Positions 7,901 through 41,426 of a stretch of DNA of 41,539 nt are shown here, piece by piece. The stretch is taken from IMG/VR virus record IMGVR_UViG_3300031673_000160, positions 1 through 41,539 of that record; one strand, 5' to 3'. The position numbers were made by a program, and so were the translations under genes. The DNA comes from a virus. Position 1 is the first letter of the stretch. Every line of letters begins with the position of its first letter. Under the pieces are notes generated by a model, which saw nothing but the letters and a program-made list of their open reading frames with translations, searched no databases and was not told the origin of the DNA.

Positions 7901-8566
7901 ATGAAGTTAAAAAAGAAAGATTTACTCGAAATAATTGATAGTAATGGAGAGTTAATTGGGAATACCGATATACCCACAGTTGATGCTAATGCTGATACTC
8001 AAGCAAGTAATACCAGTGACTATAATCAGAAAATAGGTACTCAGCCATTCCGATATGATATGTTGGGTCGTTTCGGCTTTACATTGATGCCTTTTATGGA
8101 AGGCGTTGATAAACATCAGGGTCAGGCTGAATTGGAAAATGATTTAGTTGACCTGTTGAATGACAGATATGTTGAACTCCTTAGTCATTATTATAGAAAT
8201 CCTCAAAAAGTCAAATCAGATTACCGAAAATATAGTGCCGATAAGGAAGTTGGTGAAGAAGCAACGAAACATAGTGTTATTTGGGCAGATAAAATCCTTA
8301 AAATACTTGAGAAACATTTCGGAAACGCATTTAATAATCTCGATGAAAGACTCAAAACCCTTGACGAGCAATTTCATGAAAATATTGCCGAAGGAAAAGT
8401 TGTTGAAGACAAAATGGTTGACCGAAAAGAAGATGAAATGTCAACTAAAACCGAGGACGGTGAGGTAAGGGAAAAGAAACTCGAAAAAATTGCTGGTCTA
8501 ATTAATAAATTGGAGAAGAAGGATATTGATAAACTAATTAATTTATTGGAGAAGAAGAATGGCTAA
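7901..8566 (+). CDS. Hypothetical coiled-coil protein, 221 aa
   Basis: No family is recognised. Residues ~1-50 are polar and probably disordered (many Asn, Thr, Asp, Ser). Residues ~50-130 are helical (LENDLVDLLNDRYVELLSHYY). The C-terminal third is strongly charged, with heptad-like Leu/Ile spacing ending in LEKKDIDKLINLLEKKNG, suggesting a coiled coil. The gene follows a GTATTTATA motif, so it is probably the first gene of a phage-promoter transcript. It overlaps the next gene by 8 bases, suggesting co-translation with the Nudix fusion. Confidence 0.75.
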   Translation: MKLKKKDLLEIIDSNGELIGNTDIPTVDANADTQASNTSDYNQKIGTQPFRYDMLGRFGFTLMPFMEGVDKHQGQAELENDLVDLLNDRYVELLSHYYRNPQKVKSDYRKYSADKEVGEEATKHSVIWADKILKILEKHFGNAFNNLDERLKTLDEQFHENIAEGKVVEDKMVDRKEDEMSTKTEDGEVREKKLEKIAGLINKLEKKDIDKLINLLEKKNG

Positions 8567-9338
8567 TCAAGAACTATATGATAAAACCTATAGGATACCC
8601 CCAGAGGTCTTAAAGGGTATCCAGACAGCCTTGGTATCCAATCCGCAAGGAGAAGGCGTAAAACGAGCTAAATTCATGCTTAAAAACGGTTCTATGACCT
8701 ATCAAGCAATGAAGAGATTAAAGAATTTCTTCGATTACTTCAATCCACAGTCAGATGACCCGACCCAATTCAGTCTTGCAGGTGGTCAACCCATGAAAGC
8801 GTTCATTGAAACCACATTGAATCAAGACAGAGCAGGTGTTGCAAGGTCAAAAGAAGTCAGACGTGATATAACAGCAAATCCGAATTCAGAATTAAAACCA
8901 TTTCAAGCACCAAGATTAAGTATAAACGAAGAAAAGAAAGAAAAAGCAAAAAATGCCGTTGCTGTTATCGTAAATAAAGACAATAAAATATTGTTATTAA
9001 AACGAGCAGATGGTAAAAAAATCTGGATGCCAAGCAAATGGGCACTTGTTGGTGGGGGAATTGAAAAAGGTGAGACCCCACAACAGGCATGTGAGAGAGA
9101 AATACTGGAAGAAACTGGTTTGGAAATCAAGAAATTCGTTCAGTCTTTTAGAATTGAAAGACATGCTGATAGCATTGAATATATTTTTGCTTGTAGATAT
9201 GATGGTGACCCAACAGATATTACGCTTAACGAAGAAAATACAAATTACGGTTGGTATGACGTGAGTGAAATGGAATATCTTGATATTGTTCCACATTTAA
9301 TCGAATATATTACTCTCGTGTTTAAAAAATACGAATAA
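8559..9338 (+). CDS. Nudix hydrolase with an unknown N-terminal domain
   Basis: The C-terminal half is a Nudix pyrophosphohydrolase. The Nudix box GX5EX7REUXEEXGU is complete at about residues 166-188 (GGIEKGET...REILEETGL), preceded by the typical strand VAVIVNKDNKILLLKRAD. Such enzymes cleave nucleoside diphosphates linked to another group: damaged dNTPs, NAD, ADP-ribose or capped RNA. The substrate cannot be read from this sequence. The first ~120 residues form a separate helical domain (RIPPEVLKGIQTALVSN..., KRAKFMLKNGSMTYQAMKRL) that I do not recognise. The start at 8559 has GGAGAAG upstream and overlaps the previous gene by 8 bases. Given the ART-like and RNA-repair genes downstream, ADP-ribose or RNA-end substrates are possible. 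Confidence 0.88.
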   Translation: MANQELYDKTYRIPPEVLKGIQTALVSNPQGEGVKRAKFMLKNGSMTYQAMKRLKNFFDYFNPQSDDPTQFSLAGGQPMKAFIETTLNQDRAGVARSKEVRRDITANPNSELKPFQAPRLSINEEKKEKAKNAVAVIVNKDNKILLLKRADGKKIWMPSKWALVGGGIEKGETPQQACEREILEETGLEIKKFVQSFRIERHADSIEYIFACRYDGDPTDITLNEENTNYGWYDVSEMEYLDIVPHLIEYITLVFKKYE

Positions 9339-9341
9339 TTT

Positions 9342-9350
9342 GTATTTATA
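9342..9350 (+). promoter_or_regulatory. GTATTTATA phage promoter candidate
   Basis: GTATTTATA is 31 bases before the ATG at 9382 and immediately follows the Nudix stop codon. The leader is nearly pure A/T with no Shine-Dalgarno sequence. Confidence 0.55.
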
Positions 9351-9381
9351 AGAAATAACAGAAAAATTAATAATAAATAAA

Positions 9382-9960
9382 ATGGCAGAAGAAACCAGTA
9401 GATTGTTAGAAAATAGTGCAGAATTAAGAACCTGTTCGTTAGCAAAAAATAGTGCTGGATACACACCCGGAAAGGAATATCTTCCAACTACTCCAGACAC
9501 AATTTCAGATGGTGATAACAGGGGAAGAGACCCTGAATCAGAAGGCGCAATAATTGGCACGCAAATCGATATCGAAACAAGGACTAAGCAGATGGCAAAG
9601 AATGCCGATGGTTATACGTATGGTAATGAGTACGGTCCGAGTCACGCAGACACTATTTCAGATGGTGATTGTAGAGGCAGAGACCCTGAATCAGAAGGCG
9701 GTTCAATTGGAACAAACAAAGATATTGACACACGGAATAAACAGATGGCAAAGAATGCCGATGGTTATACGTATGGTAATGAGTATTGTGCAGGTGTTGC
9801 TGATACGGTTGCTGATGGTGACGATAAAGGCAGAGAACCAGAAGTTGGTGAAGAAGCTGGAACTTGTATCGATTTCAATAATAGGAATCGTTTACTTGCA
9901 AAAAATGCTGGTCTTTACACAAAAGGTAATGAATATTGTGCAGGTAGTGGTAGAGTATAA
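9382..9960 (+). CDS. Tandem-repeat protein (four AKNxxGYTxGxEY repeats), function unknown
   Basis: The whole 192-residue protein is built from about 51-residue repeats. AKNxxGYTxGxEY occurs four times, starting near residues 21, 72, 123 and 173. Between them a DTISDGDxRGRDPESEG segment is repeated, diverging in the last copy (DTVADGDDKGREPE). The repeat is Asp/Gly/Asn-rich, acidic and without hydrophobic core stretches or membrane segments, so each unit is probably a small metal- or partner-binding turn structure. A few Cys appear in the later copies (NEYCAG twice). The gene follows a GTATTTATA motif and its stop overlaps the next start (TAATG). An abundant virion or decoration protein is one guess; no known family is recognised. 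Confidence 0.85.
   Translation: MAEETSRLLENSAELRTCSLAKNSAGYTPGKEYLPTTPDTISDGDNRGRDPESEGAIIGTQIDIETRTKQMAKNADGYTYGNEYGPSHADTISDGDCRGRDPESEGGSIGTNKDIDTRNKQMAKNADGYTYGNEYCAGVADTVADGDDKGREPEVGEEAGTCIDFNNRNRLLAKNAGLYTKGNEYCAGSGRV
9528..9785 (+). repeat. 153-base direct repeat inside the tandem-repeat gene
   Basis: Two stretches recur exactly 153 bases apart. A 20-base block is at 9528-9547 and 9681-9700. A 44-base block is at 9589-9632 and 9742-9785. Near-identity at the DNA level, not only in protein, indicates recent duplication or gene conversion between repeat units. Confidence 0.85.
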
Positions 9961-10916
9961 TGATAAATGAGGCTAAAATATTGTTCAATAATATCAAAAA
10001 CTTTCGCAATCTCTTAACAGAAGGCGTTGGTCAGGATGCTATTAAGAAAGCGATTGAAAATCATGAATGGATTTATCTTTACTATAACGGTGATGATGAA
10101 GATGGTAAAAATGCAACTGGTTATCGAACGGTAAGACCTTATGTACTTGGCACAAATGCTGCTGGAAACACGGTTTTGAGAGCATGGCAAGACAATCCAA
10201 AAAATAGTTGGCATTTCAGTAACCGAAAGACACGTCCCGATAGTCAATATCATGATTATTGGAGTGATTCCGAGGGTGTGAAACCGGGCTGGCGAATGTT
10301 CAACTTGGATAAAATTTCAAAAGTATATCCAACAGGTAAGAAATTTAATGACGCAAATGGTCTACCTATGATACCTGCGGGATATCATGAAGGTAGTGAT
10401 GACAACATGACCAGTGTTATTGCATATGTATCAACAAAAACCGAACCTGATTTTGATATGAAATATGATAAGGATGTTCAAACAGATATCATATCAAGAA
10501 CAGACCGAGATAAAGCGAAATGGGATAGTATTAGAAGAGGAAATAAGAATGCGAAGAAAATCACTGCCGATGACGTGGTTAAATTACGTGATGTCGCAAG
10601 TCGTGTACAAAAAACCGCACATGGTAGTTATCTCGTTGTAATTGATGACCGAAATAATTTCCAATTGATGTTGGGGAAAGATAAGGATAAACAAAATATC
10701 CCAGACATCGCAATTGTTGGGTCATTACCTTATTTATATGACAGTCTTGTTAAACAAAATGCCCCTGCCGATGACAAATTCTTCAATGATATGAAAAACA
10801 AGACACAAACTGATTTAAGACTGAAAGCACAAGATACTGCAAATCAGCCTGAACCAGAAATAAAAGAAACAAAAACTCCAGAAATACCATATAAGAAAAT
10901 GACTTTTTTCAAATAA
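9960..10916 (+). CDS. WYL-like domain protein, 318 aa
   Basis: Residues ~26-128 match the WYL fold pattern: 'AIKKAIENHEWIYLYYNG', then 'GYRTVRPYVLGTNAAGNTVLRAW', then after a loop 'WRMFNLDKISKVYPTGKKF'. That is the usual strand, RxxxPYxLG, LRAW, and 'R-F-LDRI' order. WYL domains bind nucleic acid or nucleotide ligands and often regulate defence genes or activate helicases and nucleases. Here there is no HTH in front. The remaining ~190 residues are unassigned, with one segment (GSYLVVIDDRNNFQLMLGKDK) predicted as beta. The start overlaps the upstream stop (TAATG). A role as ligand sensor or nucleic-acid-binding effector is inferred. Confidence 0.75.
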   Translation: MINEAKILFNNIKNFRNLLTEGVGQDAIKKAIENHEWIYLYYNGDDEDGKNATGYRTVRPYVLGTNAAGNTVLRAWQDNPKNSWHFSNRKTRPDSQYHDYWSDSEGVKPGWRMFNLDKISKVYPTGKKFNDANGLPMIPAGYHEGSDDNMTSVIAYVSTKTEPDFDMKYDKDVQTDIISRTDRDKAKWDSIRRGNKNAKKITADDVVKLRDVASRVQKTAHGSYLVVIDDRNNFQLMLGKDKDKQNIPDIAIVGSLPYLYDSLVKQNAPADDKFFNDMKNKTQTDLRLKAQDTANQPEPEIKETKTPEIPYKKMTFFK

Positions 10917-10920
10917 TGAA

Positions 10921-10929
10921 GTATTTATA
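10921..10929 (+). promoter_or_regulatory. GTATTTATA phage promoter candidate
   Basis: GTATTTATA lies 23 bases before the ATG at 10953 and just after the WYL-like gene's TAA, followed by an A-rich leader. Confidence 0.55.
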
Positions 10930-10952
10930 AAAAAATATAAAATTTTATAATA

Positions 10953-11645
10953 ATGGCAAAAAAACTTGACTTAAATAAATTAAGGGATGAAATCGATAAG
11001 GAGAAGCAGAGTCGAAACATGATTCCATCTAAATTAGGTGAAAGTGTTGGTAGAGGCGTGTCACCACGAGATGAATTCTTAACTGGATTATTGCAAGCCA
11101 GAGAAACTGGAAATGACACCCCTTCAACTACACTAATTAAAGTAGTTGAAAACAAGGTAGCTGAAAAACATGGTGGAATAAAAAAACATGTTATTAATGA
11201 AGCAGCACCAGTCCAACGTCCCACAACAGTTGACATGTCGCCTGAAAGGGATGAACAACTATTTGCTGACCTTGAGAAGAAAAGAAAAGCAACTCTTGCT
11301 GAAAGTATTCAGGCATTCACTGGTTCACAATCTGCTGCACCACCAGCACCTTCTGTAAATTATAACGGACAACAATTCTTGACATCAGCACCTGTTCTAC
11401 CTGCTGGAGCACCAATGCAAATAAATGAAGCAGCACTGGTTGAGGGCGTAAAAAACGTTGTTAATGAATATCTCAGTGAGAATCTTGGTGTTGTATTTGA
11501 AGAAGCAATCAAGGGAACGATAATCGAAATGTATGCCGTGGAACGAATCAAAGAAGTCTTGAATGAAAACCGAGATTTAATTAAAACAGTGGTTATTGAA
11601 ACCATTCGAGAGATTCAAGCAAAAAACAAAGCAAAGGCGCAATAA
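10953..11645 (+). CDS. Hypothetical protein, 230 aa, helical ends
   Basis: No domain is recognised. The N-terminus is charged and helical (KKLDLNKLRDEIDKEKQSR). The middle (about 90-150) is Ala/Pro-rich and probably flexible (SAAPPAPSVNYNGQQF). The C-terminal ~70 residues form a long amphipathic helix region (GVKNVVNEYLSENLGVVFEEA, then VVIETIREIQAKNK), suggesting oligomerisation. Its stop codon lies inside the terminator hairpin. A small structural or scaffolding-type protein is possible. Confidence 0.75.
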   Translation: MAKKLDLNKLRDEIDKEKQSRNMIPSKLGESVGRGVSPRDEFLTGLLQARETGNDTPSTTLIKVVENKVAEKHGGIKKHVINEAAPVQRPTTVDMSPERDEQLFADLEKKRKATLAESIQAFTGSQSAAPPAPSVNYNGQQFLTSAPVLPAGAPMQINEAALVEGVKNVVNEYLSENLGVVFEEAIKGTIIEMYAVERIKEVLNENRDLIKTVVIETIREIQAKNKAKAQ

Positions 11646-11662
11646 TTATTGCGCTTTTTTTT
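11637..11662 (+). terminator. Rho-independent terminator (perfect palindrome + T8)
   Basis: The 18-base perfect palindrome GCGCAATAATTATTGCGC (11637-11654) is followed by eight T. It includes the TAA stop of the preceding gene and separates it from the giant gene at 11703. Confidence 0.9.
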
Positions 11663-11674
11663 ACTACCCTTTCT

Positions 11675-11683
11675 GTATTTATG
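11675..11683 (+). promoter_or_regulatory. GTATTTATG phage promoter candidate
   Basis: GTATTTATG lies 13 bases after the terminator T-tract and 19 bases before the giant gene. It is followed by a short inverted repeat, GAATATA-A-TATATTC (11683-11697). Confidence 0.5.
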
Positions 11684-11702
11684 AATATAATATATTCGTA
11701 AC

Positions 11703-14700
11703 ATGACTTATGATGAATTCAAACAAAATTTCTTACCAGAATTCCTAAATATTAATTCCTATGCTGGTAGGATGAAATATGCTGATGAAAATCTTCAGAG
11801 AATCGGCAGTGGTACTGGAAGAGCAGTTTATGATATTGATGGTGAAAAGGTTTTGAAACTCGCAAAAAACGCCAAAGGTATTGCACAGAACGAAGCCGAA
11901 GCAGGTGCTGGATATTATCGTGATACCCAACATATAGTAACCATTGTTTTTGACAGTGAGGATAATAATAGTTGGTTGATTTCCGAGAAAGCGAAAAAGG
12001 TTAATGAGGCACGAATTAAAGAACTCACTGGTATCCCAAGCCTCAATGATTTATATTATTTTCTTAGAAATTTCAAAGAACAAAATAATGGTAGAAAAAA
12101 AATTATTCATCAAGACCAAGAACTCGTGGAATTTTTCTACGAAAACGAATTCGCACAAGACCTACAAAATTTCATAGCCAATTATAGTCAACATGCTGGT
12201 GACATGGGCAGACCAAGTACATATGGTGAAGTACTTCGAGACGGTCAACCGACAATTGTTCTAACAGATTACGGTTTGAATGATGAAGTATATGACAGCC
12301 ATTATAATCGACAGAGAAAGCAGAGATATGGAATGCATGAACTCTTCAATTATGCAGACGGTAATGATGATATTCTTAGTGATGCTGGTGGTGGAATGGA
12401 TATTAGACACGGTATGTGGGCACAAATGCCTTATAGTGTGGATGATGGTCAAGGTGTTATCAATGAAAACTTTATTAAATTTGTTTCAAATCATGACAAA
12501 TATCCCAATAAGCCAGTAGCGGGTCTTCCTGTTCTTGCAGACCATTTTCAGAACTGTGTGAATAACATCAAAGAAACATTAAAACATGTTGAAAACAAAA
12601 AACAGTTTTATGGTAATTTATTGGAACTCCAGAACTATCTAATTAGACGAGGTTTTTATGACCGAGACCCATTAATGAGTGAAGAATATGTTATTAATGA
12701 AGACACTCCTTCTGTTGACCCCGATACGTTAAATGATAGAAATTATAGTGATAAACTGGCGACTGCGGTTGCAATTAAATTAAACCTAACATCACCAAAA
12801 TATCTGGGTGGTGGAGGAAATGGGTTTGCATATGAGATTAATGATAATCTTATAATGAAACTAACCACAGATATTAGTGAAGCAGATGCTGCATCAAGAC
12901 TAATGAGAGGTCAACCCAAAAACATATCAATAATTTTCAATCTATATAAAGTCGTTGATACCGAAACCGATAAAGCGGTTTTTGTCATAATGCAAGAAAA
13001 TATCAACGATAAACCACTGGATAGACTTAGAAAACTTCAAGCCGATATTTCCACAATAAAACCAGATGGTTTGGATTATGAAGATATTATGGTAAATATA
13101 AAAAAACCAAAGAAGTTTAATCATAATGAATGGGTTGTGTGGGCGAAAAAAATATTAACTAATAATCCAGAATCTGGTGTTAGTCAACAAGAAAGACAAG
13201 CAGCATATGAATATCTTCTCGACATGTTCAAAATACGTCAGGAATTATTAGATTACCGCATCAAATCGACTGATTATATTGCGATTGCGAATCTTGGTTA
13301 TAAAAATGGTGTGTTGAAATTTTTTGATGTTGGTGGTTATTATGGTGTCGGTGAACCAGAAATTGGTGATGAAGATATCATAAATTTACCTGAAAACCTT
13401 AGTGAAGAACAATTAAGTGAAGACTATCCCAGAGACCGTGCAGATGCAATTGCTGTTGAAATTGGGAAAAAACTTGGTGTCGAACCACAGTATATCGGAC
13501 ACGGATTATTTGGTGTTGCATACGATATTGGTGATAATAAAGTGTTAAAAATAACATCAGATAAAAGTGAGGCAGCAGAAAATCTTGGACTTATTGGAAA
13601 ACCTCTGAAATATATTGCACAACCATATCGGGTATTTCAAGTCAATTCGGAAGTGAATGCTGATTTCCCAATAACATATGGTATTATTCTGGAGAAATTA
13701 AAAACAGACCAACCATATTTTAAACGTATGTATGATAGACTTGAATATGTCTTTAAAAATATTTTTAATATTGATTATAAAGAAGCACTTGAGGTATATC
13801 TATATGGTCATCAATTTGACCACGATATTGAAAAAAGCGAGGTTGACCACTATTTTAAAAAGAACAGTGAAGACGCAGAATTCTTTTTCAGTATTTTGAG
13901 AATTGCTGAAGAACTTGATAAGTATGGTGTGGAAAGTCTTGATTATTATAATGCTGAAAATCTTGGATACAAGAAAGACGGTGCAATTGGTTTCTTTGAT
14001 GTGGGGTTCGGCAATGGATTTTTACAACCAACTGATGCGGAACAAATGGGTGTGAATGTTGCTGAAGACGGTAGTGCTAAATTCAGTACTGATAATGCGA
14101 TAGCACAGGATGATTTTCCACCATATAATAGTAATGATACTTCTCCAATGATTAATAATGACTTGGATGCGAATGTTGCTTCCACAATGTATGAAGACCT
14201 TGAATATAACCATGTTGTTGGTGACGCTACTGAAGATAAATATATGTTAACTGAAAATGAGGGGGAAAAATATTATCGTGCTGTTGAGAAAAATATGGGT
14301 AAGACAATTGAGTTCGAACCAGAAGGTTTTTATGAAGCAATTGATGATGACGGCAATCCAATTTATCAATATGATACATTCTGGGAAAGTGATATAGCAG
14401 AAGTTGCTGCAAGTAAAACTATTGGTGGTGCTGTAATGGGATTATACTCAATGTTTAGGACAAATGGTAGAAATCCAGAAACATTCTATATTTATATGAT
14501 TAATGAAAAACCCGATGTTGATATTTCTCATTGGGATATGGGTGATTTTTATCATTTAAAAGAGGTTAGATATCGTAGAGCGGTTCAGGGTAAATATATA
14601 GGTAAACTGATAATTACTGATGACATGAAAACAAAATTAAATGCTTTTTATAATATGAATTCATTAGAAGCATATGATGAACCCGATGATGAGACATATG

Positions 14701-16802
14701 AAATTGTGAAAAATACTGATTATGACCAATATATTGATAATGTTAAGGGTATGGTGCATGAAAGGAATAAATCATTTGGCACTGGTTCTAAAACAGTAAA
14801 GGTAAAAAGAAAATGTCAACTTGCTGGATTAGGTAATACCAGTGTTGCTTGTAATCAAGGTGATATAAATAATCTGGAATTCGGTTCAGTTAATGAGGAA
14901 GATTTGGAAATCAGGGAATATTTTAGTAGTCTTGTACCTAAAATAGATGAGGGAGAAATTATGACATTACAAGACCTACCTTTTAGAAAAGAAGTCGAAC
15001 AACTTGGTGGTAAGATATTTAGCGTTGGTGGTGCTGTCCGTGACGAGTTTCTGGGTAAAGAATCTAAAGACTTAGATGTGCTGGTAACTGGTATTCCTAT
15101 GGACAGTCTTGAACAACTACTTAAGAAATATGGTGGGGTAAATAATGTCGGTGCGAGTTTTGGTGTTTTGAAGTTCGTACCAAAGGGCAGTAAAGAAGAA
15201 ATTGATATTGCGATTCCCCGTACTGAAGTACCAACTGGTGCTGGTGGTCATCAAGGTTTTGATGTGACTTCAGACCACGAATTACCAATTGAAAAAGATT
15301 TGGAACGCAGAGATTTTACAATTAATGCAATAGCCAAGGACATTGATGGGAACATAATTGACCCATATAATGGTCAGGAAGACCTGAAGAATAAAATTAT
15401 TCGTATTGTTAATCCAAAAGCATTTAGTGATGACCCATTGAGGATGTTACGTGCAGTTCAGTTTGCCAGTCGTTTCGGTTTCACAATCGAACCCAAGACC
15501 ATGCAAATGATAATTGATAATGCCAGTAAGATTACTGAGATTGCACCAGAAAGAATTTTAATTGAACTTGAAAAGATTGTTACAAAAGGCAATGCGTTAA
15601 TTGGTGTTGAGCTACTGGCTTCAACTGGTTTGTTTAAGCAGATTTTCGGTAACGAAATCCAACCTTCTCAAATAGGTCGTAGAGACTTTACTGGTGTCAA
15701 AACAATGGCTGAATTATTATTCTTAATGATGAATGGTGTGGTTCAGAATCCCGCAGAATTCTATCTTAGTAGGTTTAGCACCGAAGACGCTAAAAGAGAT
15801 AGAACATATAAAGAATTACAGGCATTGGATTTAGCATTCAACTCAGACTTACTTGACCAACAAATGAGTCCAGTTAAAGCAAGGTCAATTGCTCATAACA
15901 TGTATACAACAGCATCACAGACACTCGAAAGTCAAGTCTTACCTGAAGCAATTGCTGTTGCTGCACAGGAATTGCTACAAGGTAAGTATCCGAAAACCGT
16001 CAATGAGTTGGCGGTTAATGGCAATGATTTAATGCAAAAAGGATTGCAGGGAAAAGCAATAGGAGACATGCAAAAATCAATGCTAATTAGGATTTATGCT
16101 GATAAGATTAGGAACAATAAGGAAGAATTACTATCTTTGGTGAAATCTAATAATGAAAAATTAAACGAATTATCTCATTTAGATTTTGAAAGAGAAAGTA
16201 AATGGAATATAAATGGTGAAGAGGTCGAATTAGATTTTTTTATTGAGAAATACGATAAATGGAATTATAAATATGAAAGATTTAGAGACCCATCTAAAGA
16301 ATCGGTGTTGAGATTTATAGAAGATGAGTTTCCAGAATTTGTTAATGATGAAAAACTAAAAAAAGAATTATATTGGGCATTGACTGATAGAGAATTATTG
16401 AATGAAGACGAAATGAAAAAAGTGAGTTACAGTGCGGTAGTTCTTGATGATAAGTCGAAAGCAAGTTTACTTAAAGTATTCAGTCCAATGATACCTGAAG
16501 GTTGGGAAGTCATTGCTCACCATATGACAATAAAAATGGGTGCGCTTGAAAACGGTAGTAGAGAAAAAGATGATATGGAAAACGGTACTGAAATTACATT
16601 AAAAGTAAATGATTATGCTATGGATGAACTGGTAATGGCTGTTGGTGTTGAAGGATACCCAACTACAAATCCTAAACCACATATAACAATTGCTGTAAAT
16701 AGAATAGAAGGTGGGAAACCGTTCCTCTCAAACAAATTAACTGATTGGAAACCATTAGGGTTTCCCATAACATTAACTGGAAAAGTAAGTGAAGAAGGGT
16801 AA
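11703..16802 (+). CDS. Giant multidomain protein: three kinase-like modules, CCA/poly(A)-type nucleotidyltransferase, 2H phosphoesterase
   Basis: The 1699-residue protein has several modules. Three kinase-like units start with glycine loops at about 35-43 (GSGTGRAVY), 369-377 (GGGGNGFAY) and 599-607 (GHGLFGVAY). Each continues to a VLKL/IMKL/VLKI strand and later a DFG-like DYG (~189) or FFDVG (~540, ~764). HRD is not evident, so they may be atypical or inactive. Residues ~1090-1300 are a class II tRNA nucleotidyltransferase/poly(A)-polymerase head and neck: SVGGAVRDEFLG, metal-binding DLD (1123-1125), RRDFTINAIA and DPLRMLRAVQFASRFGF. The end (~1573-1699) carries the two HxT motifs of 2H phosphoesterases, H1607-M-T and H1660-I-T. 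Adding nucleotides to RNA 3' ends and opening cyclic phosphates together point to RNA end repair, which is inferred. Residues ~850-975 may hold a further ART-like region. Confidence 0.88.
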   Translation: MTYDEFKQNFLPEFLNINSYAGRMKYADENLQRIGSGTGRAVYDIDGEKVLKLAKNAKGIAQNEAEAGAGYYRDTQHIVTIVFDSEDNNSWLISEKAKKVNEARIKELTGIPSLNDLYYFLRNFKEQNNGRKKIIHQDQELVEFFYENEFAQDLQNFIANYSQHAGDMGRPSTYGEVLRDGQPTIVLTDYGLNDEVYDSHYNRQRKQRYGMHELFNYADGNDDILSDAGGGMDIRHGMWAQMPYSVDDGQGVINENFIKFVSNHDKYPNKPVAGLPVLADHFQNCVNNIKETLKHVENKKQFYGNLLELQNYLIRRGFYDRDPLMSEEYVINEDTPSVDPDTLNDRNYSDKLATAVAIKLNLTSPKYLGGGGNGFAYEINDNLIMKLTTDISEADAASRLMRGQPKNISIIFNLYKVVDTETDKAVFVIMQENINDKPLDRLRKLQADISTIKPDGLDYEDIMVNIKKPKKFNHNEWVVWAKKILTNNPESGVSQQERQAAYEYLLDMFKIRQELLDYRIKSTDYIAIANLGYKNGVLKFFDVGGYYGVGEPEIGDEDIINLPENLSEEQLSEDYPRDRADAIAVEIGKKLGVEPQYIGHGLFGVAYDIGDNKVLKITSDKSEAAENLGLIGKPLKYIAQPYRVFQVNSEVNADFPITYGIILEKLKTDQPYFKRMYDRLEYVFKNIFNIDYKEALEVYLYGHQFDHDIEKSEVDHYFKKNSEDAEFFFSILRIAEELDKYGVESLDYYNAENLGYKKDGAIGFFDVGFGNGFLQPTDAEQMGVNVAEDGSAKFSTDNAIAQDDFPPYNSNDTSPMINNDLDANVASTMYEDLEYNHVVGDATEDKYMLTENEGEKYYRAVEKNMGKTIEFEPEGFYEAIDDDGNPIYQYDTFWESDIAEVAASKTIGGAVMGLYSMFRTNGRNPETFYIYMINEKPDVDISHWDMGDFYHLKEVRYRRAVQGKYIGKLIITDDMKTKLNAFYNMNSLEAYDEPDDETYEIVKNTDYDQYIDNVKGMVHERNKSFGTGSKTVKVKRKCQLAGLGNTSVACNQGDINNLEFGSVNEEDLEIREYFSSLVPKIDEGEIMTLQDLPFRKEVEQLGGKIFSVGGAVRDEFLGKESKDLDVLVTGIPMDSLEQLLKKYGGVNNVGASFGVLKFVPKGSKEEIDIAIPRTEVPTGAGGHQGFDVTSDHELPIEKDLERRDFTINAIAKDIDGNIIDPYNGQEDLKNKIIRIVNPKAFSDDPLRMLRAVQFASRFGFTIEPKTMQMIIDNASKITEIAPERILIELEKIVTKGNALIGVELLASTGLFKQIFGNEIQPSQIGRRDFTGVKTMAELLFLMMNGVVQNPAEFYLSRFSTEDAKRDRTYKELQALDLAFNSDLLDQQMSPVKARSIAHNMYTTASQTLESQVLPEAIAVAAQELLQGKYPKTVNELAVNGNDLMQKGLQGKAIGDMQKSMLIRIYADKIRNNKEELLSLVKSNNEKLNELSHLDFERESKWNINGEEVELDFFIEKYDKWNYKYERFRDPSKESVLRFIEDEFPEFVNDEKLKKELYWALTDRELLNEDEMKKVSYSAVVLDDKSKASLLKVFSPMIPEGWEVIAHHMTIKMGALENGSREKDDMENGTEITLKVNDYAMDELVMAVGVEGYPTTNPKPHITIAVNRIEGGKPFLSNKLTDWKPLGFPITLTGKVSEEG

Positions 16803-16805
16803 ATT

Positions 16806-17438
16806 ATGGAAGAAATTCACGACTTTATTGGAAAAAATAAAGCAGGTGAGAAGTTAGAAAAGGAAGTTATTGAAGATATCCGAAAGAAAAGATATCCAAC
16901 AACACATAAATATGAACCAAATAATGGTGATTATGATGTTTTTATTGATGAAATAAATGAAGGAATTGAGATTAAAAATGATTTAGAAGCACTATTCAGT
17001 AATAACATCTGTATTGAATATAAACAAGATGGTCGATTATCTGGAATTTCAATAACTAAAGCAAAATACTGGATTCAATATGACCAAACTTATTTATATT
17101 TGGCGTTAACTGAGGATATTAAATATTTGATTCGTTCTTTTTTAATTTATCATATAGATTTAAAAAAGTTTGCAACTGGATTAGCTCTGGCTGATTATCC
17201 AAGCGATGTGTGTACAACGAAACTGAAGGAATTTGAGACTAAATCAAGAGAAAAATATGGTGATTTATATGAGGAAATTCAACCAACAGATAGAATTGGT
17301 GATTTACCGAATAAGAAATTGAATCAAGGAAATTATTATAAATATATGGGTTTATATTTAGTTCCTAAAGAATTATTTAGAAAATATTGTTTAGAAGTAA
17401 ACCCAATTAATAAAATGACATATAAGGGTTTACAATGA
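16806..17438 (+). CDS. PD-(D/E)XK-like nuclease, 210 aa
   Basis: Residues ~40-92 follow the core of a phage PD-(D/E)XK family. There is an Asp strand (DYDVFI, D44), a strand with E-x-K (GIEIKND, E55 and K57), and then 'NICIEY...SGISITKAKYWIQY', like the 'GN-IE...SGI-T-AdyW' tail of that family. An N-terminal helix with a conserved-looking Glu (GEKLEKEVIEDI) also fits. The remaining ~115 residues are unassigned. It starts 3 bases after the giant gene and overlaps the HAD gene by 4 bases (ATGA), so the three are one translational unit. It might cut or process DNA or RNA; the assignment rests on motif pattern only. Confidence 0.7.
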   Translation: MEEIHDFIGKNKAGEKLEKEVIEDIRKKRYPTTHKYEPNNGDYDVFIDEINEGIEIKNDLEALFSNNICIEYKQDGRLSGISITKAKYWIQYDQTYLYLALTEDIKYLIRSFLIYHIDLKKFATGLALADYPSDVCTTKLKEFETKSREKYGDLYEEIQPTDRIGDLPNKKLNQGNYYKYMGLYLVPKELFRKYCLEVNPINKMTYKGLQ

Positions 17439-18028
17439 AAAGATTAGCAGTTTTTGACTTTGATGGTACGTTGATGAATACACCAGACAAAGAAAATGGG
17501 ATGAAATTGTGGAAAGAAAAGAACGGACAACCATATCCACATAAAGGATGGTGGGGTCGTAGAGAAAGTCTTGACACCACATTATTTAACATCAAACCAT
17601 TTCCAAGAGTATTGGGTCAATTGAAGAAAGAGAAAGCCACACCAGATACCTCAGTCATTATATTGAGTTCGAGAATGGAGAAACTACGTCCAGAAGTCGA
17701 GAAGATTCTTGACATGAATAACATTGTCGTTGATGATGTTATCTTAAAAAGAGGTGCTGAAGACAAGGGCGATGTAATTCTAAAGATAGAAAACTATAAT
17801 CAGGATTTAAAAGAGATTGTCGTGTATGATGATTATACTGATAGAGATGCTGGAAAGATTGCAGAATATACAAAAATTAAAGACCAATTGTCTGATGATG
17901 TAAAATATATTTTATATTATGTTGATAATGATAATATCCGTCCACTTATGGGTGAAGGGAAGATTAGTTTTGAATCAACAAGTAGATTATTGGAGATAAT
18001 ACAAGAAGAAATCATAAATTTTAAATAA
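17435..18028 (+). CDS. HAD-superfamily protein of the Swiss-Army-Knife RNA-repair type
   Basis: The protein has complete HAD phosphohydrolase motifs: motif I FDFDGTL (D8, D10), motif II ILSSR (S78), a Lys around 112-117 and motif III VVYDDYTDRDAG (D132, D133). Between motif I and II the stretch HKGWWGRRESLDTTLFN matches the 'GWW-----SLD' signature I associate with the HAD_SAK_1 family, named for multidomain RNA-repair proteins. The expected activity is removal of phosphate from nucleic-acid ends. Its start overlaps the stop of the nuclease-like gene (ATGA), and upstream is a nucleotidyltransferase/2H fusion, so a shared RNA-end-healing pathway is a reasonable inference. The last ~45 residues are extra. 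Confidence 0.82.
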   Translation: MKRLAVFDFDGTLMNTPDKENGMKLWKEKNGQPYPHKGWWGRRESLDTTLFNIKPFPRVLGQLKKEKATPDTSVIILSSRMEKLRPEVEKILDMNNIVVDDVILKRGAEDKGDVILKIENYNQDLKEIVVYDDYTDRDAGKIAEYTKIKDQLSDDVKYILYYVDNDNIRPLMGEGKISFESTSRLLEIIQEEIINFK

Positions 18029-22754: not shown

Positions 22755-23153
22755 ATGAATTCATATAATATTACATTTCCGTTTAGAGACGATAACGAAA
22801 CCAATAGTTATGTTCTAATGAATACCGTAACTAAGGATTCGTATAGTTCAAACCTACTGTTACTTTTATTGACTCAAAAGGGTGAAAGATATTATGAGCC
22901 AGATTATGGCACAAATTTATTAAAATATGTTTTTGAACCCAATGACTCTTTGACGGCAGCAGATGTTGAAGAAGAAATTCGAAATACTGTTTCATTATAT
23001 ATTCCAGAAGTTAAAATTAGTTCAGTAACATTCAATTGGGATAATAATGAAGAAGGACACCCAATTAATGAAAATCAACTAAATGTAAATGTTCAATTCG
23101 TATATGTTGAGGGTTCATTAACGGAACAAGGAAATATTGACTTAAATTTTTAA
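22755..23153 (+). CDS. Baseplate wedge protein, T4 gp25-like
   Basis: The 132-residue protein matches the gp25/W-like family of contractile-tail baseplates in length and pattern. Features include 'LLLLTQKGERYYEPDYGTNLLKYVF' (the family's conserved GER-M-P-FG-L---F core with Glu-Arg), followed by EPND and 'VEEEIRNTVSLYIPEVKISSV'. gp25 initiates sheath polymerisation on the baseplate wedge together with gp6 and gp53-type proteins. It opens the tail operon behind a GTATTTATA motif, with the gp6-like gene 10 bases downstream, the usual partner order. Confidence 0.88.
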   Translation: MNSYNITFPFRDDNETNSYVLMNTVTKDSYSSNLLLLLLTQKGERYYEPDYGTNLLKYVFEPNDSLTAADVEEEIRNTVSLYIPEVKISSVTFNWDNNEEGHPINENQLNVNVQFVYVEGSLTEQGNIDLNF

Positions 23154-23163
23154 AATATAAAAC

Positions 23164-25014
23164 ATGGCAACTGATGTAACAACAAATGTAGTTCAATACG
23201 GAAGCAGAACTTTCGGGGAAATTAGGGCAGACCTGATTTCATTAATTAGACAAATGTATCCAGAAGTTCTCTCAGACTTCACGGATTCAAGTGTCGGTGC
23301 AATGCTTATCGACTTAAATGCTGGTGTGGGTAATAACCTCAGTATTAATACCGATAGAGCATTTCAAGAAACTCAATTGGAATATGCGCAACAAAGAGCA
23401 AGTATTCTAAATATTGCCAAGAACATGGGATTTAATGTCCCAGCAAGAAGACCAAGCGTTACCGTTATTGATTTTAGTGTTATTGTTCCTGTACTTGGTA
23501 ATGCCCCTGATGCCAGTTATTATCCTGTATTGGAAAGCGGTGCGCAAGTACTTGGTGGTGGCAAAACATTTGAAACACAATCAATTATTGATTGGAGTAC
23601 CGCCATTAGTAGTCTTGGTGACCCTAATCGCAGTATTGTTCCAAATCTGGACACAAACGGTATACCTGTTAGTTATACCGTTACAAAAAGAGAGGTTGTT
23701 ATAAATGGTGGGACAAGTGTTTTTAAAAAAATTATTAATACCAGTGATGTTATCCCATTTTTCTCACTCACGTTGCCCGACCCAGATGTTATTGAAATTG
23801 AAAGCATTATACTTTTAGAAGGTACGAACTATAATATAAATCCAGATACAGGAGATTTTAATGACATCAATAGTAGATATTTTGAGGTTGATTATCTGGC
23901 ACAACAACGTGTTTTTGTTGAAGATGGTTTGGGTTCAAGTGCAAACACAACAACAAATAATATCAAGGCAGCGACATGGATTGATATTACGAAAAAATTC
24001 ATAAAAGAATACACACCCAAAGGTTTTTGTAGACTAACTTTTGGTTCTGGTGATAGCGATGTGAATGCGTTTCAAGAAGGGTTCTTAAAAGAAGGTGTTA
24101 GTAATCGCTATTTTCTTGAGAACTTCTTAAATAACACGGCTTTGGGTGAGAAACTGAAAGCGAATTACACTTTGTTTGTTAAATACAGAACTGGTGGTGG
24201 TGTGAGTTCCAATATTGGTTCGAATGTACTAACACAGCTTGGTTCATACAGTTTAAAAGTTTTTGGTTCTCGCCAAGATGTAAATCAACAGGTTCAGAGA
24301 AGTCTGAAAACAACAAATCCAATTCCAGCCATTGGTGGGAATGATGGTTTAAGTACTGAACAAATCAGACAACTGGTTAAATATAACTTCAGTGCCCAGC
24401 AAAGAGATGTAACGCTTACTGATTATTTGTTGCAGATATACAAGATGCCCGGGAAGTTCGGTTCACCATTTCGTGCGAATGCTTTCAAAATAAATAATAA
24501 GGTAGTTATTCCAATTCTGGATATCGGTGCTGATGGTAAACTGGATAACACAAGTAATTCATTATTACAATCAAATATTGCTGAATACCTAACACAGTAT
24601 CGAATGATTAACGATTATATTGAAATTAAAAATGGTAAGATTTTTAATCTGGCGTTTGAAATCGATGTATATGTCGAGAACACCGCAGATAATCAAATCG
24701 CCAATAGCATAATTTCAATAGTTACTGAGTCACTTGACATTAATAATCATGAAATGAATCAAGATGTTTTTCTTGGTAGACTTCAGAAGGAGATTTTGAG
24801 TGCAAATGGTGTGATAAACGTTATTAGTATTAAAGTATTTAATAAAGTTGGTGGTCAGTATTCAAACAATACCGTCACACAACCAATATCTAATACCAGT
24901 ACTGGTGAAATAAATATAGAAAATAACACGATTTATTCAACACAGGATTCGATGTTTGAAATCAAATATCCTTCCAAAGATATTAAGGTGTTACTGAGAA
25001 AGAATGTTACTTAA
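23164..25014 (+). CDS. Baseplate wedge protein, T4 gp6 / baseplate J-like
   Basis: The 616-residue protein has the gp6/J-like layout. The N-terminal 'FTDSSVGAMLIDLNAGVGN' and 'ETQLEYAQQRASILNIAKNMGF' (about 40-95) are the conserved start of baseplate J proteins. A beta-rich middle follows. The C-terminal domain contains 'FEIDVYVENTADNQ...SIISIVTES...MNQDVFLGRLQKEILSANGVI' (about 500-560), matching the terminal domain that joins wedges. It lies immediately after the gp25-like gene, as in many myoviruses. It should form the inner ring of the baseplate. The stop overlaps the next start (TTAATGG). Confidence 0.88.
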   Translation: MATDVTTNVVQYGSRTFGEIRADLISLIRQMYPEVLSDFTDSSVGAMLIDLNAGVGNNLSINTDRAFQETQLEYAQQRASILNIAKNMGFNVPARRPSVTVIDFSVIVPVLGNAPDASYYPVLESGAQVLGGGKTFETQSIIDWSTAISSLGDPNRSIVPNLDTNGIPVSYTVTKREVVINGGTSVFKKIINTSDVIPFFSLTLPDPDVIEIESIILLEGTNYNINPDTGDFNDINSRYFEVDYLAQQRVFVEDGLGSSANTTTNNIKAATWIDITKKFIKEYTPKGFCRLTFGSGDSDVNAFQEGFLKEGVSNRYFLENFLNNTALGEKLKANYTLFVKYRTGGGVSSNIGSNVLTQLGSYSLKVFGSRQDVNQQVQRSLKTTNPIPAIGGNDGLSTEQIRQLVKYNFSAQQRDVTLTDYLLQIYKMPGKFGSPFRANAFKINNKVVIPILDIGADGKLDNTSNSLLQSNIAEYLTQYRMINDYIEIKNGKIFNLAFEIDVYVENTADNQIANSIISIVTESLDINNHEMNQDVFLGRLQKEILSANGVINVISIKVFNKVGGQYSNNTVTQPISNTSTGEINIENNTIYSTQDSMFEIKYPSKDIKVLLRKNVT

Positions 25015-40049: not shown

Positions 40050-41426
40050 ATGAGTAATAAAAATCTATTCGAATACGTTAATCTTGAATCTCAAACACTT
40101 AAAAGTAAAGCAGGTAACGATTATACCAGATATGTTGTGGTTTCTGACCAAAACATGGAAACCAAAAAAATAGCCAGTAAGCTGGGTCCTCTCGGATTCA
40201 AATGGAATGGCAAAGAATGGTGGGTTTTTGGGAACAAATTAACAAAAGCAGCAGTTGATGGACTGAAAGCAATTAATACTGAATTGGAAACACAAGGTGG
40301 TCAAACAGGTGACCTTGAGGATTTTCTTACACAATTAGATGCTTTCAAAACCGAACTTCAGAGTGCTGACATTCCAACCAAAACGAAAACCGAACTCGAA
40401 GCAAATCTCGAACAATATATTGAAGACATTGCTAATGCTACTGATGAAAGAGCAGCAAGTGCAGAACTCCAGAAATTCCTGAACTTCTCAAGCAAATTCC
40501 ATCAATATAGTTTTAATAATATCATGTTCATTTATCTACAAGACCCCAATGCAACCAAAGTTGCTGGTAAATTCAAGTGGAAAAGGGATTTTAATAGAGA
40601 AGTTATTGACGTATCGAAGTCCATAACAATTAATTGTGGGAATAAATTCTATCGTCACCCCAGAACTGGAAAACTGGCAGAATACACATTAGACCAACAA
40701 AAGGCTGATAGACAATATGTTCAACAAGTTCAAAGTGGTGCTGCCCCTATGGACAGAAGTAAAATGGATGCCATTAGTGTTAGAAAAGAGATTAAACATA
40801 TTGGATTTAAACCATGTATTGTTTATGATATAGCCAATACGACTGGAGACCCTCTTCAGGATGAACCAGAATGGAAAGGGGGTAATGATGAAAGAGCAGA
40901 TGCTGTTGCGTTATTCAGTATCGCTAAGAAAAGTTTGGAAAGTATGGGTATTAGAGTGACACAAGACCCAGCGACAGCAGGTGAGAATGGTTGGAGTAGA
41001 AAAGGTCAAATAAATGTTAGTGCTGATGCAACAGGAAGTGGTGCTGCATCTACAATTTTTCATGAATGGGCACATGACTTGTTACACCAAAAGGGTGGTC
41101 AGTTCTATGATAAAGCACAAAAATATTTTGTGGATAAAGGACAATTAAATTATGCACAACTAAAACAAATTAAGGAAGTACAGGCTGAAACGGTTTCCGC
41201 AACGCTCTGTAAACACTTCGCATTACCAGCAGACCATCACCCAACATACATGGCGTTATGGCAAGCACAGGGTGGATTGAATAGCAAACAATTAATTAAA
41301 GAAAATATGTCAACAATTGCTACTGTATGTAATTTCATATTGAAGCAAGTTGATAAATATGAAAGTGAGTTCCAGACTGCAAAAGCAGGTATGGCTCAAC
41401 CAGAACAACCACAACCAGAACAATAA
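40050..41426 (+). CDS. ArdC-like antirestriction protein (zincin)
   Basis: Residues ~135-225 match the ArdC N-terminal (ssDNA-binding) domain: 'AELQKFLNFSSKFHQYSFNNIMFIYLQDPNATKVAGKFKWKRDF'. The C-terminal metallopeptidase domain has HExxH as FHEWAHDLLH (H338, E339, H342), followed by 'EVQAETVSATLCKHF' with the third ligand Glu near 377-380, as in ArdC and ImmA/IrrE-type zincins. The first ~75 residues are a small module with 'LGFKWNGKEWWVFGN' resembling the helicase N-terminus. ArdC-type proteins protect incoming phage or plasmid DNA from restriction enzymes. At 458 residues it is longer than plasmid ArdC because of this extra N-terminal module. Confidence 0.85.
   Translation: MSNKNLFEYVNLESQTLKSKAGNDYTRYVVVSDQNMETKKIASKLGPLGFKWNGKEWWVFGNKLTKAAVDGLKAINTELETQGGQTGDLEDFLTQLDAFKTELQSADIPTKTKTELEANLEQYIEDIANATDERAASAELQKFLNFSSKFHQYSFNNIMFIYLQDPNATKVAGKFKWKRDFNREVIDVSKSITINCGNKFYRHPRTGKLAEYTLDQQKADRQYVQQVQSGAAPMDRSKMDAISVRKEIKHIGFKPCIVYDIANTTGDPLQDEPEWKGGNDERADAVALFSIAKKSLESMGIRVTQDPATAGENGWSRKGQINVSADATGSGAASTIFHEWAHDLLHQKGGQFYDKAQKYFVDKGQLNYAQLKQIKEVQAETVSATLCKHFALPADHHPTYMALWQAQGGLNSKQLIKENMSTIATVCNFILKQVDKYESEFQTAKAGMAQPEQPQPEQ

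Follow-up and report, generated by a model that had tools for sequence, protein, structure and literature searches.

A modular multi-enzyme protein as probable head cargo of T4-like jumbo phages

Why would a phage join kinase-like folds, a tRNA nucleotidyltransferase and a 2H phosphoesterase in one polypeptide? The question is raised by an open reading frame at 11703..16802 on the plus strand of IMG/VR record IMGVR_UViG_3300031673_000160, of which the whole stretch of 41,539 nucleotides analysed is called the window; all features given below lie on this strand. A preliminary description, made from the window's letters, reported a single 1699-residue protein and read it as a machine for healing cleaved tRNA ends.

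Composition of the chain and its variation among relatives

The frame is open throughout, and homologous long frames are kept in independent IMG/VR contigs (1763, 1814, 1776 and 2317 amino acids (aa)), the reading frame of the homologs being intact over 1.1-2.3 thousand residues, so that the single long protein stands. Chance or an assembly artefact is ruled out, as the architecture is found again in contigs from different metagenomes. While a search of the chain protein against genome contigs found no relative, homologs are present on about 25 IMG/VR contigs, the largest of which (325-365 kb) are T4-like jumbo phages. At least five enzyme-fold modules share the polypeptide, among them domains of unlike biochemical activity. 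From the N- to the C-terminus the order is three kinase-like modules (Kin1, Kin2 and Kin3), a disordered stretch, a tentative ADP-ribosyltransferase-like (ART-like) module, a Cys motif, the nucleotidyltransferase (NTase), a helical module and the 2H phosphoesterase.

The three kinase-like modules named in the preliminary description are borne out by predicted fold and by the conserved catalytic residues of Kin2 and Kin3, while a Pfam search gave no convincing family. The predicted folds match APH(2'')/aminoglycoside phosphotransferases and JNK3 (E ~1e-4). Kin1 (residues 31-325; 11793..12677; phrog_4301), for which the AF model is of low confidence, conserves K51, D167 and D190 (DYG), and its catalytic-loop Asn is replaced by Ser or Thr; homologs occur as stand-alone proteins in XacN1 and Slickus01. 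Kin2 (residues 345-558; 12735..13376) and Kin3 (residues 575-785; 13425..14057) keep the Gly loop, the Lys, the catalytic-loop Asp/Asn and the DxG in nearly all relatives; each spans about 210 aa, with few elements beyond DxG in the predicted structure. The kinase alignment held too little conservation to serve as a query on genome contigs.

Three further modules were absent from the preliminary description. The ART-like module (residues 853-1003; 14259..14711) is a weak assignment drawn from a sequence pattern and one relative, L014, which holds the only other copy; AF gave no resolved model, and the module used alone as a query on viral contigs returned its own family only. The Cys motif KRKCQLAGLGNTSVACNQGDINNL (residues 1016-1062; 14748..14888) varies less among the chains than any other non-enzymatic element, with KKKCRLGG.GNTS.ACNQGDINNL invariant in the window and all sister chains; it matched no family and is possibly a packaging tag or a metal-binding tag. 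A small helical module (residues 1495-1566; 16185..16400) is seen in the predicted structure.

The NTase (residues 1086-1485; 14958..16157) is of the class II CCA-adding type according to Pfam (PolyA_pol, 1.7e-22, plus the RNA-binding domain), PHROG (tRNA nucleotidyltransferase), NCBIfam (PRK13299 CCA tRNA nucleotidyltransferase, positions 11-395 of 396, E 1.2e-49, under the strict cut-off) and predicted fold. It carries the GG..RD and DxD, RRD and (E/D)DxxR motifs (GGAVRD at 1109-1114, DLD at 1123-1125, RRDFTINAIA at 1202 and DDPLRMLRAVQF at 1243, the third motif being DDPLR), and both these and the 2H motifs lie where the preliminary description had placed them. Its more general assignment, CCA/poly(A)-type, was likewise upheld, and the structure comparison proposed for residues 1085-1300 revealed a CCA-enzyme fold: the closest reference is the B. 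stearothermophilus CCA-adding enzyme (E 4e-20, TM(target) 0.73), compared with a TM(target) of 0.49-0.52 for E. coli poly(A) polymerase. The latter identity was rejected, since fold and full-length family favour the CCA type, nucleotide specificity itself being a prediction.

The C-terminal module (residues 1571-1698; 16413..16796) was correctly recognised as a 2H phosphoesterase with H1607 (HMT) and H1660 (HIT). In an alignment of 12 copies the first His/Thr pair is invariant and the second motif is lost in L037 only. The Pfam family tRNA_lig_CPD, the cyclic phosphodiesterase domain of fungal tRNA ligase, matches the module in 11 of 12 relatives, with the window's own copy slightly under the cut-off. 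A 2H profile gave only chance-level matches against PDB sequences and fold comparison was needed; this retrieved mouse CNPase at ranks 48-49 (prob 1.00, TM(target) 0.44, E ~0.01), in agreement with a 2H-like structure.

Among relatives the chains begin with the kinases and the Cys motif, after which order and content vary. In other viral loci the variable part comprises GNAT modules (L036 and L014), ART-PolyVal (62 bits against a Pfam cut-off of 31 in the orthologous chain L032), zincin-like and ParB-like modules, an Acb1-like second 2H and repeats of unknown modules, followed by the NTase; the names zincin, ParB and other ARTs denote HExxH-type motifs or sequence patterns recognised by eye. 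In most relatives NTase and 2H lie close together, on one chain or with a few genes between them. About half of the relatives encode the 2H separately, in a gene of 126-136 aa that starts at a Met equivalent to the chain-internal M1571, and in some it is fused. Homing endonuclease genes (HNH, GIY-YIG and LAGLIDADG-like, named from sequence patterns) lie between module genes in L010, L011, L012, L049 and G004, and in some relatives part the NTase from the kinases. These split genes and intervening endonucleases indicate that the modules are able to work apart.

The shuffling, swapping and splitting of modules place the chain, as a variant, among the polyvalent proteins already described, which are phage polypeptides that each carry many unlike enzymes and are predicted to be injected (Iyer et al. 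2017, PMC5512222). The claim that no standard family has this layout thus falls, as kinases, ARTs, GNATs and 2H domains of these kinds are also combined in the multidomain polyvalent proteins of phages. Their repertoire includes C-lobe-truncated kinases, ParB-like domains and zincins, their genes have a late-gene setting, and they are likened to polyproteins in PMC5512222 itself. Late or virion genes also lie near the chain in the window, namely gp25-like and gp6-like baseplate wedge genes (22755-25014), with the same neighbours in the 349-kb relative G004. Elsewhere in the window, an ArdC-like protein (40050-41426) with a weak ArdcN match and a HEWAH motif is another polyvalent-type anti-restriction candidate.

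A motif shared by module borders and head proteins

The modules are parted by predicted-disordered linkers bearing I/L-N/T-E motifs. With borders defined as alignment breakpoints between chains and a motif counted if at most 15 residues away, [IL][NT]E was found at 35 of 113 non-redundant borders compared with 6.8 +/- 2.5 expected from local residue shuffles, which are a guide and give no formal probability because the chains are homologous, even after redundancy removal. Permuted motifs were not enriched in these shuffles (E[NT][IL], 7 vs 6.9; [IL]E[NT], 1 vs 7.0; [NT][IL]E, 4 vs 7.2), and [IL][NT]D was mildly so (13 vs 6.0). Compared with random positions, [IL][NT]E occurs at 60 of 208 borders where 19.6 are expected, and [IL][NT]K and [DEK][NT]E are without enrichment. 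As the motif is order-dependent in the local shuffles, composition alone is insufficient to explain it.

Six candidate protease sites are found in the window chain (a slash marks the putative cut): INE/D between Kin1 and Kin2 (residues 331-333; 12693..12701; pLDDT<50 at 326-333), LSE/D between Kin2 and Kin3 (571-573; 13413..13421; pLDDT<50 at 564-573), where L003 and L006 have NITE, LTE/N at the border to the ART-like module (849-851; 14247..14255), IDE/G before the NTase (1081-1083; 14943..14951; LNE/A at the equivalent position in L014 and L021), LNE/L after it (1487-1489; 16161..16169) and LNE/D before the 2H (1566-1568; 16398..16406). Both internal stretches with pLDDT<50 in the predicted C-terminal structure (1483-1497 and 1564-1574) hold an LNE. 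Three motifs of the chain lie in or near folded modules (residues 255, 935 and 1279), and several borders in L003 are without [IL][NT]E, so that either not all borders are cut or not all motifs are sites.

Within the window the motif excess is confined to a block of five genes at 8559-17438 (16 vs 3.8 expected); the other tabulated genes hold 10 motifs where 14 are expected, with no excess in replication or most tail genes. Besides the chain, the block comprises a Nudix hydrolase (8559..9338), whose N-terminal region ends in RLSINE/E ahead of the Nudix domain, and three proteins without assigned function: one with NLLTE/G near its N-terminus (9960..10916), one directly upstream of the chain with three [IL]NE (10953..11645; p 0.004) and syntenic in G004, and the downstream gene with two motifs (16806..17438). 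To judge from its sequence, the Nudix protein is possibly a second head-cargo enzyme. A small protein at 9382-9960 consists of about four 48-aa repeats (AKNADGYTYGNEY...DTISDGD.RGRDPE) and is shorter in G004.

Head genes are absent from the window, a 41.5-kb fragment, and the protease and capsid protein data come from relatives, which allow the motif to be defined in head proteins independently of the polyprotein. Gene order in G004 is as in the window. A Peptidase_S77 prohead protease of the T4 gp21 type is encoded in G004, G006 and G013, and in G004 the neighbouring genes were assigned to portal, scaffold and capsid by their sequence and order. T4 gp21 cuts after L/I-X-E (PMC9026906). The major capsid proteins of four relatives have a T4-like N-terminal delta domain ending in MINE/S, the relatives' scaffolds show a motif count of 5 compared with 1.1-1.5 expected, the protease itself has the N-terminus PLNE/S, and internal-protein candidates carry FKLNE/ and FKLTE/. 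The [I/L][N/T]E motif at module borders, shared with the head proteins of relatives, is what is new here; a search of the open-licence literature brought up no polyvalent protein with prohead-protease junctions. Among further observations on these genes, the G004 protease is broken by an intein-like LAGLIDADG insert (L046 ~8150-10080; G004 214152-216080), that of G006 is of a length similar to that of G004, and that of G013 is uninterrupted (242 aa), while proteins of 116-137 aa in G001 and G012 (L057 and L058) resemble the capsid N-terminal delta region.

The N-terminus of the chain may also bear on packaging. T4 internal proteins have N-terminal targeting peptides that are later cut off (PMC9026906), IPII and IPIII starting with MKTYQEFIAE/A; the stand-alone Kin1 homologs of the isolated phages XacN1 and Slickus01 begin similarly, with MK...FLSE/A and MK...LLE/A. 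An MTYxEF-type start is found in 9 of 489 ORFs, all of them polyproteins, and LxE at residue 13 in most chains, L038 being the exception. This pattern is suggestive of a T4-like capsid targeting sequence (CTS), a reading held at that strength because homology with the Slickus01 stand-alone kinase reaches residue 4; the stretch may merely be the first helix of Kin1.

Putative delivery of the enzymes and competing explanations

The chain is most likely, at a probability of roughly 0.6, a polyvalent-type head-cargo polyprotein of a T4-like jumbo phage that would be packaged, cut by the protease and ejected with the DNA, as argued by the precedent of the polyvalent proteins (PMC5512222) combined with the border and head-protein motifs. 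The chain would enter the prohead core, where the phage prohead protease would cut after I/L-x-E to yield single enzymes, which would then be ejected together with the DNA into a new host. There the kinases, and the ART-like module, may modify host proteins, the CCA-adding enzyme may rebuild or complete tRNA 3' ends, and the 2H may open the 2',3'-cyclic phosphates that RNases leave behind; a phosphatase and a phage RNA ligase could then complete the repair. Once cyclic phosphates are opened, CCA is rebuilt and the breaks are sealed, tRNAs attacked by host nucleases would be restored.

The genomic setting makes an action of the CCA/2H pair on RNA ends plausible. Three near-complete relatives have 35-54 Rfam tRNA matches each, and CCA is not encoded in 105 of 107 tRNAs (ARAGORN, the relatives' stretches examined). 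G004 encodes two RNA ligases, one DRB0094-type (above cut-off) and one Rnl1-like, and no RtcB above cut-off was found in the relatives. Two genes downstream of the chain lies a HAD phosphatase (17435..18028) with weak Swiss-Army-Knife/polynucleotide-kinase-phosphatase similarity. Jumbo-phage RNA repair sets consisting of a CCA enzyme, a 2H, a Swiss-Army-Knife HAD and RNA ligases have been treated as counter-defence (PMC7824862). Completing the phage's own tRNAs would be an equally simple use of the enzyme as the repair of attacked ones. The tRNAs of G004 and G013 include one with anticodon CUA (L074-L077; ARAGORN label Pyl), likely an amber suppressor, and TAG serves as stop codon in just 2 of the window's 38 tabulated genes.

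The healing role proposed in the preliminary description hence stands in part, as the ligases of a relative, the HAD phosphatase and the CCA-less tRNAs make a role at RNA ends plausible. Its one-chain form, in which an uncut protein made during infection acts on cleaved tRNA, with the CCA enzyme and the 2H joined for the sake of catalysis and the remaining modules as regulators, is quite unlikely: NTase and 2H are indeed neighbours in most relatives, but the frequent separate 2H gene, the homing endonucleases between NTase and kinases, the variable module order and content and a border motif that suggests cutting all speak against it, and three kinases have no obvious purpose in repair. A chain that is packaged and injected uncut, with its modules tethered and I/L-N/T-E a mere linker feature, would follow N4 virion RNAP and ArdC, which are transferred uncut (PMC5512222), and would fit the long frames maintained in relatives; it is nevertheless unlikely, as the motif goes beyond composition and recurs in capsid and scaffold proteins.

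A different function for the two RNA-related enzymes, with or without packaging, is doubtful. The CCA enzyme would then only complete the phage's CCA-less tRNAs, as the near absence of encoded CCA would suggest, and the 2H would degrade cyclic nucleotide signals in an anti-CBASS-like manner. The latter is in line with the second 2H module of sister chains L032 and L036, which passes the Pfam Acb1 (anti-CBASS) cut-off, and with Acb1 among the structural neighbours of the predicted model (rank 35, E 1e-3). However, the window 2H best matches tRNA-ligase CPDase and CNPase, and both the place among late genes and the motif of head type point to cargo, which would reach the cell before there are any phage tRNAs.

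The chances are about even that the jumbo phage packs a one-gene kit for host takeover and RNA-end repair, cut in the prohead by the capsid-maturation protease, with modules changed by recombination between cuttable junctions and CCA-adding and cyclic-phosphate-opening enzymes entering the cell with the DNA. If so, tailed phages could use head-protease processing of a polyprotein to fill their heads with several counter-defence enzymes encoded by a single gene, and I/L-N/T-E borders would offer a sequence rule for finding hidden head cargo in metagenomic genomes. Maintenance of tRNA ends would then begin with the first moments of infection, and delivery of a CCA enzyme would have a testable link with phage tRNA arsenals in which CCA is not encoded.

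Comparison with known systems

The chain resembles polyvalent proteins in its unlike enzymes, in shared domain families (2H and the kinase fold in the window) and in its late-gene setting. In contrast, the terms CCA and tRNA nucleotidyltransferase are absent from the main text of PMC5512222, where the Pol-beta NTases are minimal and NTox45-like, whereas the window NTase is full-length. Processing is also explained differently: PMC5512222 attributes it to embedded zincins, while prohead-protease-type junctions are proposed for the chain, which has no recognisable zincin. The NTase shares its motifs and its fold over the full length with class II CCA-adding enzymes (PDB 1miv), which are stand-alone and cellular, whereas here it sits within a chain. 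In the excerpts of PMC7824862 the jumbo-phage RNA repair sets are, unlike here, not described as modules of one chain.

Among phages with processed heads, phiKZ and SPN3US are jumbo phages in which many head proteins are cleaved and ejected (PMC10052503, PMC9026906). Their cleavage motifs are A-X-E in SPN3US and S/A-X-E in phiKZ, compared with I/L-N/T-E here; most of the cuts take off a propeptide, and the passages considered describe no release of separate enzymes. The T4 internal proteins and Alt, cut by gp21 (PMC9026906), share with the chain the features proposed for it, namely head cargo, L/I-X-E cuts and ejection; they are short or single-function with terminal cuts, whereas the chain would be cut internally, at many places between its enzymes.
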